Origin: Candidatus Omnitrophota bacterium
GTDB taxonomy: Bacteria; Omnitrophota; JACPQZ01
DNA length: 18,678 nucleotides
Direction of reading: 5' to 3'
Assembly: GCA_016190205.1 (NCBI GenBank)
Contig: JACPQZ010000064.1
Span: 1-18,678 of the forward strand
Made by a program: the position numbers and the translations under genes. Of this stretch, positions 3,341-8,138 are shown one piece after another. Under the pieces are notes generated by a model. The model was not told where the DNA came from. It saw only the letters and a list, made by a program, of their open reading frames with translations, and searched no databases. Positions within the stretch are counted from its first letter, which is position 1, and each line of letters begins with the position of its first letter.

Positions 3341-3600
3341 TCATCTCGGCGTCCTCCCAGTGTTAATGTATTTACAGGCATTCCAAGCAGTTTTGGTATC
3401 TACATTTAGGGCTGTGGCGATTTGAGCATAGGTCATCCCCAACAGACGTAATTCTCTTACATTTTGGGCTAATTTTTGGTATAAAGGTGTGTACTCTACA
3501 GGTAATATCTTGATCTGGGCCTGAATCTCGCCCAGGGTTCGAATTGGTCGTGACCGGGTCCAGACTTCATATTTAGAACGGTGCCGTGTTGAGGGAATCG
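3341..3600 (-). pseudogene. C-terminal remnant of a recombinase/resolvase-type HTH protein
   Basis: On the minus strand an open frame of roughly 80 codons ends at the TGA complementary to 3341-3343. It encodes ILPVEYTPLYQKLAQ followed by LRLLGMTYAQIATALNV, then TKTAWNACKYI. The second part is a clear helix-turn-helix of the kind that closes many serine-recombinase-like proteins, where it follows a PLYxKIAxKA segment. No start codon, catalytic domain or intact N-terminus is present; the frame fades into repeat sequence near 3600-3640. It is best read as a decayed mobile-element gene. The 5' limit is approximate. The base composition is AT-richer than in the neighbouring genes, which fits an imported fragment. 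Confidence 0.55.
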
Positions 3601-3640: not shown

Positions 3641-3835
3641 TCGTCGCTCGTTGATCGGTCTTCGGTGATCGCAGGATCGTTAATCGTTGATCGGTTATCG
3701 GTCATCGCAAGCGCTGTTAGCTGTCTTCTATCGGTAAACGCTGAATGACCAAGGTTTTTCTTTTCTTGCGATAACCGATCACCGAAAACCGATAAACGAA
3801 CTGGCGATAACCGATCACCGAACACCGATAACCGA
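3641..3835. repeat. Inverted repeat with arms built of 7-bp tandem units
   Basis: The left arm (3641-3711) has TCG at 3641, 3648, 3655, 3662, 3669, then 3677, 3684, 3691, 3698 and 3705: strict 7-bp steps with one 8-bp step after the fifth unit. The right arm (3765-3835) has CGA at 3769, 3776, 3783, 3790, 3797, then 3805, 3812, 3819, 3826 and 3833, with the same single 8-bp step. The reverse complement of the left arm aligns without gaps to the right arm at about 53 of 71 positions. The unit is close to CGATAAC. The arms are separated by 53 bp, so the element could form a long imperfect hairpin. No protein-coding sense was found. Confidence 0.85.
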
Positions 3836-3885
3836 CAAGGTGAATCGACGAAGTTGCGAGCCCAAACCGCCGATTCCCTCCACCT

Positions 3886-3916
3886 CCACCAATTTTGCCT
3901 TCGGCAAAATTGGTGG
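3886..3916. repeat. 14-bp stem hairpin around TTC
   Basis: CCACCAATTTTGCC and GGCAAAATTGGTGG form a perfect 14-bp inverted repeat around a 3-nt TTC centre. No T-run follows, so it does not look like a simple intrinsic terminator. The core belongs to the 31-bp direct repeat at 3892-3922 and 3994-4024. Confidence 0.8.
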
Positions 3917-4024
3917 AGCAATTGAGAATCGAAAATCGAGATTTGACATGGAGGATTCTCGATTGCGGTCAAATTTCGAATCTCGATTTTCAGATTTTGC
4001 CTTCGGCAAAATTGGTAGAGCAAT
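3892..4024. repeat. 31-bp palindromic repeat, two direct copies
   Basis: The copies at 3892-3922 and 3994-4024 match at 30 of 31 bases. Each begins ATTTTGCCTTCGGCAAAAT (a palindrome around TTC) and ends in a GAGCAAT tail. They are 102 bp apart and bracket the second heptad inverted repeat (3924-3991). They look like intergenic REP-type palindromes. Confidence 0.75.
3924..3991. repeat. Second inverted repeat with 7-bp periodic arms
   Basis: The arm at 3924-3947 and the reverse complement of 3968-3991 match at 20 of 24 positions. Within the arms TCG recurs at 7-bp steps (3929 and 3936; 3976 and 3983). The spacer is 20 bp. The unit (near GAAAATC) differs from that at 3641-3835, but the plan, heptad arms facing each other, is the same. 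Confidence 0.65.
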
Positions 4025-4145
4025 AGACAAAAAGCTCAATTGCGGTCTAATGCTCGATTGTTCTATTGTTCAAAGGAGCGGCGAGGAAGTGCCAGAAGCG
4101 TGAAGCGCATGGCGTCAGTCCACCACTAAAACGGATGTTAATGAG
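4025..4145. other. Gene-free stretch before the hairpin repeat
   Basis: It completes the non-coding interval that starts after the recombinase remnant. It holds CTCAATTGCGGTCTAAT (4035-4051), a 15-of-17 match to 3958-3974, and otherwise nothing recognised. Together with 3247-3340, which has an isolated TATAAT at 3287-3292 and no gene, it is treated as repeat-invaded spacer. Confidence 0.5.
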
Positions 4146-4192
4146 ATTGCTTCGCCCTCCTCCGCCCTTCGGGCTACGGAGGGACTCGCAAT
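4146..4192. repeat. Dispersed-type hairpin repeat before the amidase gene
   Basis: ATTGC at 4146-4150 pairs with GCAAT at 4188-4192, and CCCTCC at 4155-4160 with GGAGGG at 4178-4183, around a CCC-TTC-GGG tip, with mismatches in between. The outline, attgcttcg through ctcgcaatgac, resembles a widespread bacterial intergenic palindrome whose shadow translation reads like CHCEERSDEAIS; here the shadow frame reads VRHCESLRS. It ends about 12 bp before the ribosome binding site proposed for the amidase. Confidence 0.55.
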
Positions 4193-4218
4193 GACGGACA
4201 AAGAATAAGGGGCATACG

Positions 4219-5376
4219 ATCATCCGAACAAAAACGCTTGCCATTTTCCAACTTCTACTCCTCCTCCTTCTCGACGCCCCTTCGGCCGACGCCTACCGCA
4301 GCGCCATGGGCGAGCGGAGAGGGCCGTCGAAGACCCGCGAGTCAGCGGCCGCGCGCATGACCATCCGAGAGAGCGGTTCCGGCGTGCCGCAATGGGAAGG
4401 TTACACGAGGCAGTTTAACGGGACCCGCTATATGCCGCTTTTTTCCAAGTGCGAGCGGCACCAGGTGAGCTGGGACTGGGACGCCGCGAGCCGCCGGGTG
4501 GTTTTGGAGAAGGGCGAGGACAAGATGGTGCTTGCCCTGGGTCTTGAAGACGCGCTCGTGAATGGCGCGCTACATTCCTTTAAGCAACCTGTGGTTTTGG
4601 ACAATGGGGTGATCATGATCCCGGAGTCCATGGCTACGGACGCCTGGTGGAGTACCGCGCCGCCGCCCCCCGTCCACGTGCATCGCTTCGATTCCGTTGT
4701 GATCGATGCCGGCCATGGGGGGAAGGATCCCGGTGCGCAGGGCCCGGGGGGCATCCGGGAAAAGGACGTTGTTCTGGACATCGCCAAGCGGGTGCGGGAC
4801 ATTCTCTCTCGCTACGGGGTGCACGTCCTCATGAGCCGAAGTGACGACCGGTTCATTACCCTGGAGGGCCGGGCGCGCCTGGCCAATCAGAACGGCACCG
4901 ATTTCTTCGTGAGTATCCACGCAAATGCCTCGAAATCGAAGCGGGCCTCCGGGTTTGAGGTCTATTATCTCTCGGAGGCCATCGATGAGCATGCCCGGGC
5001 GACCGCGAGTTCAGAGAACAAGGTCTTTAACGTGAATGGGGACGAGCCCGATTTTCTTAAACAGGCGGATGCCACCCTGTGGGATTTGATCCACAGCGAA
5101 AACCGCCGCGAGAGCATGGAAATGTCTGGCATGATCGTAAACGCGATGCGCGCAGAGCTCCCTGTTCAAAACCGCGGGGTCAAGACCGCGAGGTTCTATG
5201 TCCTGCGGGGTGCGGAGACGCCTTCGGTCCTGGTCGAGGTAGGTTTTATCACGAATCCGAAAGAGGCCCAGCTTTTATCCACGCAGTTTTACCGCCAGCA
5301 GGTGGCCCAGGCCGTCTCGCAGGGAATCCTCGCATACAAGAGGCGTTTCGAAGAGACCAATGGCTTCACGGAGTAA
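4219..5376 (+). CDS. N-acetylmuramoyl-L-alanine amidase (Amidase_3), secreted
   Basis: The enzyme cuts the bond between muramic acid and the stem peptide during peptidoglycan remodelling outside the cytoplasmic membrane. Counting from ATG 4306, an AMIN/copper-amine-oxidase-N-like region spans about 40-110 and the catalytic domain 128-350, with zinc ligands H137 (AGHGG), E152 and H205 (SIHAN) and the catalytic E311 (VEVGF). ATG 4306 would leave a secreted enzyme without a signal peptide. The same frame is open back to 4195 and encodes RTKTLAIFQLLLLLLL then a SADA-Y cleavage site. No ATG, GTG or TTG exists in that stretch; ATC 4219 sits 6 nt after AAGGGG (4207-4212) and is my proposed, non-standard start. 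If that is wrong, the annotated start falls at 4306. It is followed by murI, which begins inside its last codons. Confidence 0.8.
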   Translation: MIRTKTLAIFQLLLLLLLDAPSADAYRSAMGERRGPSKTRESAAARMTIRESGSGVPQWEGYTRQFNGTRYMPLFSKCERHQVSWDWDAASRRVVLEKGEDKMVLALGLEDALVNGALHSFKQPVVLDNGVIMIPESMATDAWWSTAPPPPVHVHRFDSVVIDAGHGGKDPGAQGPGGIREKDVVLDIAKRVRDILSRYGVHVLMSRSDDRFITLEGRARLANQNGTDFFVSIHANASKSKRASGFEVYYLSEAIDEHARATASSENKVFNVNGDEPDFLKQADATLWDLIHSENRRESMEMSGMIVNAMRAELPVQNRGVKTARFYVLRGAETPSVLVEVGFITNPKEAQLLSTQFYRQQVAQAVSQGILAYKRRFEETNGFTE

Positions 5377-6256
5377 TGCACGCCGAAATCGCGGGCTTCG
5401 CCACCGGTCTCGGGTCTCGGGTCTCGGGTCTCGGGTCTCGGTCTCCGCTCGCCCAATCGGGGTATTCGATTCGGGGCTGGGGGGACTTACCGTCGTGCGG
5501 CAGCTCGCCCGCGTACTCCCCAAGGAAGACGTCATTTATTTGGGCGACTTGGCCCGGTTGCCCTATGGCCCCAAATCGGACCGAGAGATCATCCGCTACA
5601 GCGAACAGGCCGTCACCTTTCTCAAGCGGCAGGGCATCAAATTCCTGGTGATTGCCTGTAATTCGGTTTCTTCCATCGCCTACCCCGAGCTTAAAAAGCG
5701 CTTCACCCTGCCCATGGTGGGGGTGATCGCCCCCTGCGTGGAAGAGGCATTTCTCGCGACGCGCGCGGGCAGAGTAGGGGTCATCGGCACCCAGGCTACG
5801 ATTCGCAGCCGGGCGTACGCCAAGATCATGACGCGCCATGACAGCCGCATGCGCGTTTTCTCCAAGGCATGCCCTCTTTTTGTGTCACTGGTGGAGGAGG
5901 GCTGGTTGAATGGAACGGTCACGACGCGGGTCGCGCGCAAGTACCTTATGTCGTTAAAGCGGCGGGGGATCGACACCCTTATTTTGGGGTGCACCCATTA
6001 TCCACCCCTGGCGCCCACCATTCGGAGGGTTTTGGGGAGGGGAGTGCGGCTCATCATGTCCGGCGACGCGACCGCCGAAAGGGTCAAGCACATGCTCGCG
6101 GAACGGGGGCTATTGAGGATGGGGCGGCATACGGGTTCGATCCGTTGTTTTGTCACGGACGCGCCGGAAAGGTTCCGGGTGCTGGGCCAGAGGTTTCTGG
6201 GGCCCGTCATCAAGCGGCGCGTGAGATCCATCCGGGAGGTCCGGATCGATGTTTGA
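5360..6256 (+). CDS. murI: Glutamate racemase
   Basis: It converts L-glutamate to D-glutamate for peptidoglycan. The body starts at PIGVFDSGLGGLTV (residues 32-45), with the two catalytic cysteines at C100 (IACNS) and C211 (GCTHYP), the D37/S38 pair and the YLGD segment near 60-63. Usual racemases begin only a few residues before that glycine-rich start; here about 31 extra residues precede it, and residues 16-29 are translated from the tandem GGTCTCG array. ATG 5360 is the only standard start in frame and lies 17 bp inside the amidase gene, behind a weak GAAGAGA purine stretch. ATG 5376 overlaps the amidase stop (TAATG) but is in another frame. The 3' end overlaps queD by 8 bp (ATGTTTGA). 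Confidence 0.9.
   Translation: MASRSNARRNRGLRHRSRVSGLGSRVSVSARPIGVFDSGLGGLTVVRQLARVLPKEDVIYLGDLARLPYGPKSDREIIRYSEQAVTFLKRQGIKFLVIACNSVSSIAYPELKKRFTLPMVGVIAPCVEEAFLATRAGRVGVIGTQATIRSRAYAKIMTRHDSRMRVFSKACPLFVSLVEEGWLNGTVTTRVARKYLMSLKRRGIDTLILGCTHYPPLAPTIRRVLGRGVRLIMSGDATAERVKHMLAERGLLRMGRHTGSIRCFVTDAPERFRVLGQRFLGPVIKRRVRSIREVRIDV
5406..5446 (+). repeat. Tandem heptanucleotide array in murI
   Basis: Five identical GGTCTCG units run from 5406 to 5440, followed by a partial GTCTCC. The array is inside the translated 5' end of murI. The unit contains no stop codon in any frame and is not a multiple of three, so each gain or loss of one unit shifts the frame. Confidence 0.95.
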
Positions 6257-6620
6257 GATCAAGGTCACGGAACAGTTTTGTGCCTCCCACCAGTTGCGTG
6301 GCCACGACGGGCGCTGTGAAAACCTGCACGGGCATAACTGGCAGGTGGATGTCGCGGCCGAGAGCCGCGAGCTTGATAAGATAGGAGTGGTGGTGGATTT
6401 CGAGGAGGTCAAGCGCACCCTGCATGACATCTTGGAGGAATTCGACCACAGAAATTTGAACGACTGCCCGCCTTTTGATAATGGTAAGAATCCCACCGCA
6501 GAGCTTTTGGCGGAGCATATTTATGCGAGCCTTGAAAAGGCGTTCGGCGCCGGGAGATTTCGGTTTACGTCCGTCACGGTCTGGGAAACAAAGGATGCCT
6601 GCGCTACGTACCGGCCTTAG
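6249..6620 (+). CDS. queD: 6-carboxytetrahydropterin synthase QueD
   Basis: This 123-residue protein catalyses the second step towards preQ0, turning dihydroneopterin triphosphate into 6-carboxy-tetrahydropterin in the cytoplasm. The zinc ligands are H14 (CASH), H27 and H29 (the LHGHNW motif), the catalytic cysteine is C23 in CENLHGH, and D66-H67 (FDHRNLND) forms the second part of the site. NPTAEL and VTVWET complete the family signature. Length is normal for bacterial QueD. It overlaps the end of murI and its last 26 bp overlap queC, so the preQ0 genes are translationally linked to the cell-wall genes before them. The related eukaryotic-type PTPS is less likely given the queC-queE neighbours. 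Confidence 0.93.
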   Translation: MFEIKVTEQFCASHQLRGHDGRCENLHGHNWQVDVAAESRELDKIGVVVDFEEVKRTLHDILEEFDHRNLNDCPPFDNGKNPTAELLAEHIYASLEKAFGAGRFRFTSVTVWETKDACATYRP

Positions 6621-7302
6621 GTCAGCTGTCATACTCTTGTCGGGAGGGTTGGACTCGGCCGTGGCGCTTTACCTTGCCCGCGAGCAGGACTATCGTCTCC
6701 ACGCCTTGAGCTTTGACTACGGCCAAAGGCACTGCCGGGAACTGAAGTCGGCCGAAGCTGTTGCCGATGAGGCGGGGGCGATTTGGCGGGCAGTGAAGAT
6801 TTCTTTACCGTGGGGGGGGAGCGCGCTCACGGATGAAAAGGTCGCTGTCCCCACCCCGCGCCCGGCCGAGAAGATGAGGCAGGAAATCCCCGTGACCTAT
6901 GTCCCGGCGCGGAACACGATTTTCTTGAGCTTCGCCGCCTCCTGGGCGGAAGTGGTTGGGGCCGGGGCGATCTTTATAGGCGCTAATTCAATCGATTTCA
7001 GCGGCTACCCCGACTGCCGCCCGGAATATTTTGAACACTTCCATGAGCTTATCCGCGCGGGGACGCGCGCGGGGACCTTGGGCCGGGCGCCGGAGATCGC
7101 GGCCCCCCTGGTGAATATGACCAAGGCCGATATCGTCCGGGAAGGACAGCGGCTGGGCGTTCCTTTCGAAATTACGTGGTCGTGCTACCGCGGCGGGGAG
7201 GCCCCCTGTGAGAATTGCGAGGCCTGCGCCCTCCGAGCCCGCGGATTCGAAGAGGCCGGCATCGCTGATCCTCTAGTAACAAGGTCAGTCGCGAGTCGCT
7301 AG
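6595..7302 (+). CDS. queC: 7-cyano-7-deazaguanine synthase QueC
   Basis: QueC uses ATP and ammonia to turn 7-carboxy-7-deazaguanine into preQ0. The N-type ATP pyrophosphatase loop SGGLDS is at residues 16-21, and the zinc site uses C197, C205, C208 and C211 (SCYRGGEAPCENCEAC). Length 235 is normal. ATG 6595 was chosen because it places the PP-loop strand close to the N-terminus; ATG 6475 lies deep in queD and would add 40 unrelated residues. A purine-rich GGGAAACAAAGG precedes it. The C-terminal tail RSVASR and the stop codon are encoded by the left arm of the heptad inverted repeat at 7288-7317, so the native end seems to have been replaced. Confidence 0.93.
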   Translation: MPALRTGLRSAVILLSGGLDSAVALYLAREQDYRLHALSFDYGQRHCRELKSAEAVADEAGAIWRAVKISLPWGGSALTDEKVAVPTPRPAEKMRQEIPVTYVPARNTIFLSFAASWAEVVGAGAIFIGANSIDFSGYPDCRPEYFEHFHELIRAGTRAGTLGRAPEIAAPLVNMTKADIVREGQRLGVPFEITWSCYRGGEAPCENCEACALRARGFEEAGIADPLVTRSVASR

Positions 7303-7440
7303 ATGCTAGTCGCTAGCAAACAAAAACATTGTCGGCCCTTATTGGTTGATTCTGCCTTACTTGCGGCAATTGCCTGGGAACAAAGGAAAGAAGGTAGATG
7401 ATGATATTACGCCAGCGACCAGCGACCAGCGACCAGCGAC
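7288..7440. repeat. Third heptad-armed inverted repeat, across the queC-queE junction
   Basis: The left arm, 7288-7317, reads GTCGCGA, GTCGCTA, GATGCTA, GTCGCTA, GC. The right arm, 7411-7440, is GC followed by four CAGCGAC units, whose reverse complement is GTCGCTG four times and GC. The arms match at 23 of 30 positions without gaps. The 93-bp spacer holds the ribosome binding site and start codons of queE; the left arm holds the queC stop codon. Confidence 0.85.
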
Positions 7441-8138
7441 TTACGGGGTCCGCGGAAATTCACGAAATCTTCTTCTCTTTCCAGGGCGAGGGCATCTTGG
7501 TGGGCGAGCCCATGGTCTTTGTGCGTTTCGCCTATTGCGATCTGGCCTGCCGGTTCTGTGACACCCCGCCCCCTAAGACGCCAACACTCATGGCAATCGC
7601 TGAAATTGCGGGCGAGGTGAGCCGCCTCAATGCCGCCGAGGGGCCTTTTCGATTTGTGAGTCTTACCGGAGGTGAGCCGCTCCGCTATGCCGCGGCGCTC
7701 CGGGGGCTTTTGCCCCGGCTCATTGACTCCGGGTTCAAAACTTATCTGGAAAGCGATGGGACTAAGGCCCGGGAACTGGAAGAGGTTATTCAGTGGGTTC
7801 ACCTCATCGCCATGGATATCAAACTTCCTTCGAGCACGGGGATGAGGCCTTTCTGGACGGAGCACGAGTCTTTTCTAAATGTTGCCCGACGCACTGAATA
7901 TTTCATTAAGGTGGTTGTCACGGGGTCCACTCCGGCCCGCGAGGTGAACGAAGCCGCGCGGCTCGCCGCCCGGTTTAACCCAAACACCCCTTTTATTATC
8001 CAGCCGGCCTCTCCGTTCGGCGATTTCCGGGATGCCCCTGGCGCGGATGCACTCCCTGCTTTCGTGCGCGCGGCGCGCGCACACCTAGAGGACGTGCGGG
8101 TCATCGGGCAAAACCACAAGCTCATCGGGGTGCGCTAA
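7398..8138 (+). CDS. queE: 7-carboxy-7-deazaguanine synthase QueE (radical SAM)
   Basis: QueE converts 6-carboxy-tetrahydropterin to 7-carboxy-7-deazaguanine. The protein has the QueE opening EIFFSFQGEG with G-E-P-M-V-F-V-R, then C47-x3-C51-x2-C54 binding the radical-SAM 4Fe-4S cluster, and SLTGGEPL for SAM binding. Length 246 is within the family range. ATG 7398 is supported by a purine-rich AAGGAAAGAAGG just upstream; ATG 7401 is equally possible. Residues 6-14 (QRPATSDQR) come from the heptad array, so about 18 residues before the family core are not conserved sequence but translated repeat. It lies between queC and the nucleotide pyrophosphatase gene, all in one direction. Confidence 0.92.
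   Translation: MMILRQRPATSDQRLTGSAEIHEIFFSFQGEGILVGEPMVFVRFAYCDLACRFCDTPPPKTPTLMAIAEIAGEVSRLNAAEGPFRFVSLTGGEPLRYAAALRGLLPRLIDSGFKTYLESDGTKARELEEVIQWVHLIAMDIKLPSSTGMRPFWTEHESFLNVARRTEYFIKVVVTGSTPAREVNEAARLAARFNPNTPFIIQPASPFGDFRDAPGADALPAFVRAARAHLEDVRVIGQNHKLIGVR

Follow-up and report, generated by a model that had tools for sequence, protein, structure and literature searches.

We propose that the 7-nt repeat arrays in the window, by which we mean the whole 18,678-nt stretch of Candidatus Omnitrophota contig JACPQZ010000064.1 (contig C57 of a genome of 1.65 Mb in 76 contigs), are probably recognition sites that bound a small element carrying a gene for an IVP/S23 protein (PF05635, "23S rRNA intervening-sequence protein"; hereafter IVP), rather than random microsatellites. 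In such an element, each arm would span some 30 nt and hold five (A/C)G cores spaced 7 nt apart (8 nt in some lineages); a pair of oppositely oriented arms would bound the element, which in its full form would carry IVP as its one gene. Each subunit of IVP, a four-helix-bundle protein that forms a ring of five in crystals, could contact a single core, much as the TRAP ring binds its KAG triplets, and the protein may mark or join the two ends of its own element; gene-less copies like those in the window would then be non-autonomous derivatives served in trans. Taken together, the observations suggest a small mobile element with marks at its two ends, each IVP subunit reading one of the marks at each end.

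Two mirrored array pairs were first seen to enclose an open reading frame of the IVP family. A search of the genome itself found five IVP genes, four of which lie between mirrored heptads of four units: CGTACTG (C13), CGTGCTT (C21), AGATACC (C24) and a GTGAGTG-like unit (C31). At C24:38967-39197 lies what seems to be a gene-less form of the C24:40212-40684 element, shortened by internal deletion. We then compared a cross-phylum set of 80 IVP loci, the top scorers of a capped scan in which named genomes were searched with an IVP protein alignment. The set represents many bacterial phyla as well as Methanophagales archaea. At a score of at least 11, lag-7 arrays occur in the 220 bp upstream of 28 and in the 220 bp downstream of 27 of these 80 genes, compared with 4 and 2 at an offset of 1.2 kb. 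Inverted arms were identified by aligning each upstream flank to the reverse-complemented downstream flank (score of at least 14), with flanks swapped between loci as the control. They are present at 58 of 79 cross-phylum loci (control 1.0%), at 22 of 29 loci from genomes of the same phylum and our own genome (control 5.8%), and at 25 of 30 loci from an independent draw of 369 gammaproteobacterial genomes (control 2.5%). Identity at lag 7 is 0.636 at the armed cross-phylum loci, versus 0.24–0.35 at other lags, and the period is 7 or its double in 24 of the 25 armed gammaproteobacterial loci. In the same relatives, the inverted ends of Y1_Tnp genes are of a different type and have a lag-7 identity of only 0.27, which argues that heptads are not a general trait of small mobile genes. 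Of the own and foreign IVP loci that we scanned with Rfam, none matched rRNA.

The units differ but share one code, NNN(A/C)G(T/G)N, for which all support comes from the IVP loci. When the 51 upstream arms of period 7 are rotated against one another, they yield NN(T)(A/C)G(T/G)N; the G stands at 92%, and the information is 2.80, the null maximum being 2.06. Applied unchanged to 24 held-out gammaproteobacterial loci, the code scores 2.21 as compared with 0.99 ± 0.24; at these loci G reaches 99% and follows an A in 78%, and identity inside the arrays is 0.98 for this G and 0.60–0.87 at the other positions. The upstream arm holds more G than C at 59 of 64 IVP loci.

Array spans in the genome peak at 30–32 nt (140 of 317), which equals four 7-nt steps plus a core, and hence five cores. 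Chains of AGNNACC have four cores in 39 cases, five in 67, and six or more in none; the corresponding counts for CGGGAWG are 2, 16 and 0. CGCTTCC chains have five cores in 14 cases and never more than five, and CGTA[CA]NG chains have four, five and six cores in 11, 28 and 5 cases, respectively. Five is likewise the modal count at the foreign IVP loci, in the cross-phylum, the gammaproteobacterial and the period-8/9 sets. Five cores are found in 78 of the 121 arms that have four to six (p=3e-12 against equal thirds), and the peak lies at five on each side separately (21 of 51 upstream and 25 of 51 downstream arms). Counts above five are expected from chance G's beside an array, and some arrays have expanded (L220, L236). 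On the protein side, the paper on XCC0516 (2gsc) refers in its title, as given in the reference list of PMC4990558, to a quaternary structure of five four-helix bundles. The IVP homologues 2gsc and 2rld contain five chains each, matching the five cores per arm.

Unit and period track the IVP lineage, not the host. The period is 7 (or 14) at 51 IVP loci, 8 at 12 and 9 at 1, and it requires eight changes on the IVP tree, a count that is indicative given the few columns and many open forks of that tree. One period-8 clade spans Lambdaproteobacteria, Chitinophagaceae, Nitrospirae and KSB1. The more alike two IVP proteins are, the more alike are their arms (Mantel p=0.001), also in pairs from different phyla (p=0.004). 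Within our genome, 179 of 317 arrays lie within one mismatch of the arm unit of a resident IVP, whereas the 43 foreign IVP units match a median of one own-genome array each. TCGTATG arrays, similarly, are concentrated in the genome whose IVP has a TCGTATG arm.

The first-pass annotation of the window had grouped the 7-bp arrays at four sites, most of them in mirrored pairs, into a possible class of heptad-armed elements with differing units, and had looked to a strong genome-wide excess at lag 7 for support. Our genome-wide scans, which cover 1.646 of 1.649 Mb, bear out this part. Intergenic identity is 0.313 at lag 7, 0.247–0.281 at the other lags from 1 to 13 and 0.257 after shuffling; arrays scoring at least 16 number 202 at lag 7, 107 at its harmonic, lag 14, and 0–5 at the other lags from 4 to 19. 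Arrays of related units 50–200 bp apart are in opposite orientation in 26 pairs and in the same orientation in 2, as the proposed mirroring within 200 bp implies. The units vary widely (TACGCWG, [AT][AT]ACCAG, GAAGCGG, CACGAAG, CGACCAG, CGTCCCA and others), with uniform polarity inside each unit family, and do not trace to one consensus element. What did not survive is the suggested mechanism, in which arrays are generated from differing seeds and not by the spread of an element: every unit family has members scattered over many loci, over half of the arrays match a resident IVP arm unit as described above, and the units share a core, prefer five copies of it and follow the lineage of the protein that they flank. 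A shared core, a preferred number and lineage-bound units argue for recognition-site arrays rather than for an array-making mutational process. Mirrored heptad arrays have already been published for one unit in Xanthomonas (PMC4692102).

Some elements are nested: AAATTCG arms lie inside AAACCAG arms, and these inside CGTGAATC arms. The mirrored heptad elements at C54:9031-9397 and C71:9910-10141 lie one inside another in a fixed order, the arms of one unit within those of another, as if elements insert into each other or carry several arm layers.

Comparisons within Anabaena show that IVP units come and go, in some cases at least as cargo. Anabaena UHCC 0204 carries a ~950-bp unit, made up of heptads, an IVP gene and mirrored heptads, at a place where three congeners have only a short intact spacer linking the two neighbouring genes; its right junction falls exactly where the array stops. 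Other Anabaena carry this IVP with these heptads at further loci inside an ISL3-like element (L330, L332, L344), a miniature inverted-repeat transposable element (MITE) with GGCTCTACCGGACTT ends and 8-bp duplications (GTAGTTAT, AGATTTTC), where the ISL3 assignment and the duplications were judged by eye. The duplications belong to this enclosing element. One Anabaena IVP copy (L332:1857-1965) is interrupted by ~100 bp with short inverted ends, AGAGACTTCCAA.../...TTGGAAGTCTCT.

An alternative that we regard as unlikely is regulation at the RNA level, in which IVP would bind the upstream pentad in its own mRNA in a manner resembling TRAP on the trp leader, the downstream arm would serve as an antisense partner or lie in an antisense transcript, and the gene-less copies would form a regulon. 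The strand polarity of the cores is in line with this proposal, a five-subunit ring and five regularly spaced cores would suit the wrapping of single-stranded nucleic acid, and relatives of IVP are located in rRNA and retroelements. TRAP is a ring oligomer that reads one short AG-type triplet per subunit at regular spacing; it differs in being an unrelated protein, an 11-mer, with an RNA target, shorter spacing and sites that are not mirrored. Downstream arms, in which the core is antisense only, peak at five just as upstream arms do, the arms do not pair in register, and the unit is present or absent as a whole between congeners, all of which speaks against a regulator of this kind. Since both arms have five cores and those of the downstream arm are only antisense, we tentatively favour recognition at the DNA level over recognition of RNA. 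The register of the arms also bears on a hairpin resembling the intervening sequences (IVS) of 23S rRNA, with arms selected to pair and cut by RNase III. The protein family and the inverted ends are the same, and the IVS of Coxiella has a 28-bp stem (PMC4990558), but shuffling the order of heptads in one arm scores as well as the real order: matching heptad by heptad beyond the shared unit reaches p<=0.05 in 1 of 49 loci (Fisher 0.998). This speaks for site arrays at both ends rather than an IVS-like RNA stem, and the Rfam-scanned loci lack rRNA matches. We rejected the hairpin on this register test; it is largely refuted, and only a slim chance is left to it.

Polymerase slippage, which would build 7-nt arrays from random seeds (the footprint hypothesis; PMC4679880, PMC4692102) with IVP genes merely landing nearby, is very improbable in our judgement. 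Heptads are reported in the literature as over-represented simple sequence repeats in many genomes, and the expansion of some arrays (see above) also speaks for slippage. The unit and length of the arrays are, however, not unconstrained as in simple sequence repeats: core counts peak at five in the families counted instead of declining steadily with copy number, several families have a sharp upper limit, and the G is near-invariant. Nor would slippage account for the mirrored orientation, for the way in which unit and period track the protein's lineage across phyla, or for other small mobile genes that are without the arrays. That the arrays are G-quadruplexes or other DNA-structure elements (Rehm et al. 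2015) is scarcely credible; GGGAATC and GGGGA(C/T)T heptads do form quadruplexes (PMC4692102), yet most units, such as CGTACTG, AGATACC and CGTTGAT, have no G run and obey the same five-core rule, which refutes quadruplexes as a general cause.

Several observations weigh against recognition sites read by IVP. The fifth IVP gene of the genome (C16) has no mirrored heptads, about a quarter of IVP loci are without clear arms, and the cross-phylum figures come from best-scoring loci, with two loci recurring between sets. Consensus units of our own genome alone fit the core code no better than shuffled units, and run lengths at the other five heptad positions, while shorter than those of the core, partly overlap with them. 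Roughly 44% of the arrays in the genome match no resident IVP unit, and the window's GGTCTCG and GTCGCTR are among these. AGTGGTT, tried as a further in-trans test, proved unspecific, with repeats in many of 36 genomes whatever their IVP unit. Finally, no target-site duplication is visible at the occupied and empty sites of Anabaena UHCC 0204, and some Anabaena IVP copies moved as cargo of the ISL3-like element.

Of the known systems, 23S rRNA IVS share the PF05635 protein family, the reading as a selfish element and the inverted ends with the heptad elements, and the IVS literature treats IVP as part of a possible mobile element in rRNA (PMC4990558). In contrast to IVS, the Rfam-scanned loci lie outside rRNA genes, 23S included, and the arms are arrays of sites in place of a matched terminal stem; the S23/IVP frame is present in the full elements. 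The heptameric repeats GGGAATC and GGGGA(C/T)T of Xanthomonas and Nostoc are intergenic and were read as quadruplexes, with 70 and 75 convergent (mirrored) heptad pairs in two Xanthomonas genomes (Rehm 2015, PMC4692102); the accessible text of that article treats a single unit and names no IVP link, shared core or five-core rule. The gammaproteobacterial locus nearest XCC0516 (L366) has short, weak arms only and no GGGAATC. TAACTGA repeats of Beggiatoaceae are intergenic, occur in 2–6 copies and form split sets with related heptads (MacGregor 2015, PMC4679880). In that paper, which names no IVP, they are direct repeats, mostly in one orientation and placed before start codons. Their reverse complement, TCAGTTA, fits the core code. 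The short tandemly repeated repetitive (STRR) heptanucleotides of cyanobacteria are known as anonymous repeats; they too are 7-nt, and in Anabaena an IVP gene lies between AGGGAAT/C repeats that recur within the genus. MITEs and other DNA transposons, and repetitive extragenic palindromes (REP) with their RAYT partners, resemble the heptad elements in being short and inverted-ended, with gene-less copies and a coding partner; terminal inverted repeats and gene-less copies of a coding element are indeed found here. The heptad elements differ from both in that the empty site in Anabaena UHCC 0204 gives no target-site duplication, and in that no Y1 transposase lies between the repeats, the Y1_Tnp loci of the same genomes having other inverted ends and no lag-7 signal.

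We put the chances at about even that IVP elements are a previously unrecognised mobile class in bacteria and archaea, in which a ring of five identical small proteins recognises the ends of its own element by counting, with one (A/C)G core for each of the five subunits and a step of 7 or 8 nt that changes as the protein evolves, and that cyanobacterial, Xanthomonas, Beggiatoa and other heptads are their end arrays. To our knowledge, reports of heptanucleotide repeats go back decades and give no cause for them, and IVP/S23, common in bacteria, has solved structures but no assigned function. A literature search, with subscription papers outside its coverage, found no published link between IVP and heptads and no five-core rule. 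The rule joins the two subjects and makes both testable, as it predicts which protein reads which repeat as well as the number, spacing and strand of the sites. It proposes a nucleic-acid target for IVP and would explain why its ring is fivefold. For gene-less copies, it allows annotation and the choice of a partner protein with no more than the sequence.

In the window, all four arrays described by the first-pass annotation are present and share the 7-bp period, with lag-7 identities and mirrored alignments above those of shuffled sequence. Lag-7 identity is 0.63 (3641-3709) and 0.62 (3765-3835) in the arms of the first pair, 0.88 in the array at 5406-5446, and 0.67 (7285-7318) and 0.88 (7410-7441) in the GTCGCTR-like pair. 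The GAAAATC pair, with 0.70 and 0.71, is the weakest (right arm p=0.0045 against shuffles). Mirrored-alignment scores of the three pairs are 29, 15 and 14, the maximum of 1000 shuffles being 12. The arms are blocks of five (A/C/G)G cores at 7-nt steps, two 30-nt blocks per arm in the first pair, giving counts of 5+5+5+5 for element A, 5+5 for element C, 5 for the solo array and 4+4 for the weak pair. Elements A (3642-3834) and C (7287-7441), the solo array (5411-5440) and the weak pair (3923-3992) are gene-less and would be derivatives of full elements; they contain no PF05635 gene, which full elements elsewhere carry.

Table 1. Heptad blocks of the window (positions in the 18,678-nt stretch).
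Feature	Positions	Strand	Description
Element A, outer left block	3642..3671	+	five CG cores, CGTCGCT CGTTGAT CGGTCTT CGGTGAT CG
Element A, inner left block	3678..3707	+	five CG cores, CGTTAAT CGTTGAT CGGTTAT CGGTCAT CG
Element A, spacer between arms	3708..3768	.	too short for a ~115-aa IVP gene
Element A, inner right block	3769..3798	-	five CG cores, CGTTTAT CGGTTTT CGGTGAT CGGTTAT CG
Element A, outer right block	3805..3834	-	five CG cores on the - strand
Element B, weak left arm	3923..3945	+	four (T/C)G cores, TGAGAAT CGAAAAT CGAGATT TG
Element B, weak right arm	3970..3992	-	four (T/C)G cores on the - strand
Solo array, amidase-murI junction	5411..5440	+	five CG cores, CGGGTCT x4 + CG
Element C, left block	7287..7316	+	five AG cores, AGTCGCG AGTCGCT AGATGCT AGTCGCT AG; overlaps queC 3' end
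Element C, right block	7412..7441	-	five cores, AGTCGCT GGTCGCT GGTCGCT GGTCGCT GG; overlaps queE-frame 5' end

Host reading frames run through heptads at three places: the N-terminal part of the murI frame (5360-5445; SRVSGLGSRVS), the C-terminus of queC (7285-7302) and the N-terminal part of the queE frame (7398-7440). The weak GAAAATC pair is framed by two direct copies of a 37-nt hairpin (ATTTTGCCTTCGGCAAAATTGGTRGAGCAAT; window 3892-4030). Adjoining element A, a frame remnant on the - strand (3361-3530) contains a helix-turn-helix-like stretch (..YTPLYQKLAQNVRELRLLGMTYAQIATALNVDTKTAWNACKYIN, by eye) and is probably the end of a decayed recombinase or transposase.

Outside the window, genes for GxxExxY proteins (PF13366, PDDEXK_3) are also armed, with inverted short repeats at 22 of 30 loci (control 6%; L254, L256, L297-L326). 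Their arms contain a CACGAAG/CGCAAAG-like motif at an irregular spacing of 8–10 nt, and possibly represent a parallel class with another ruler.

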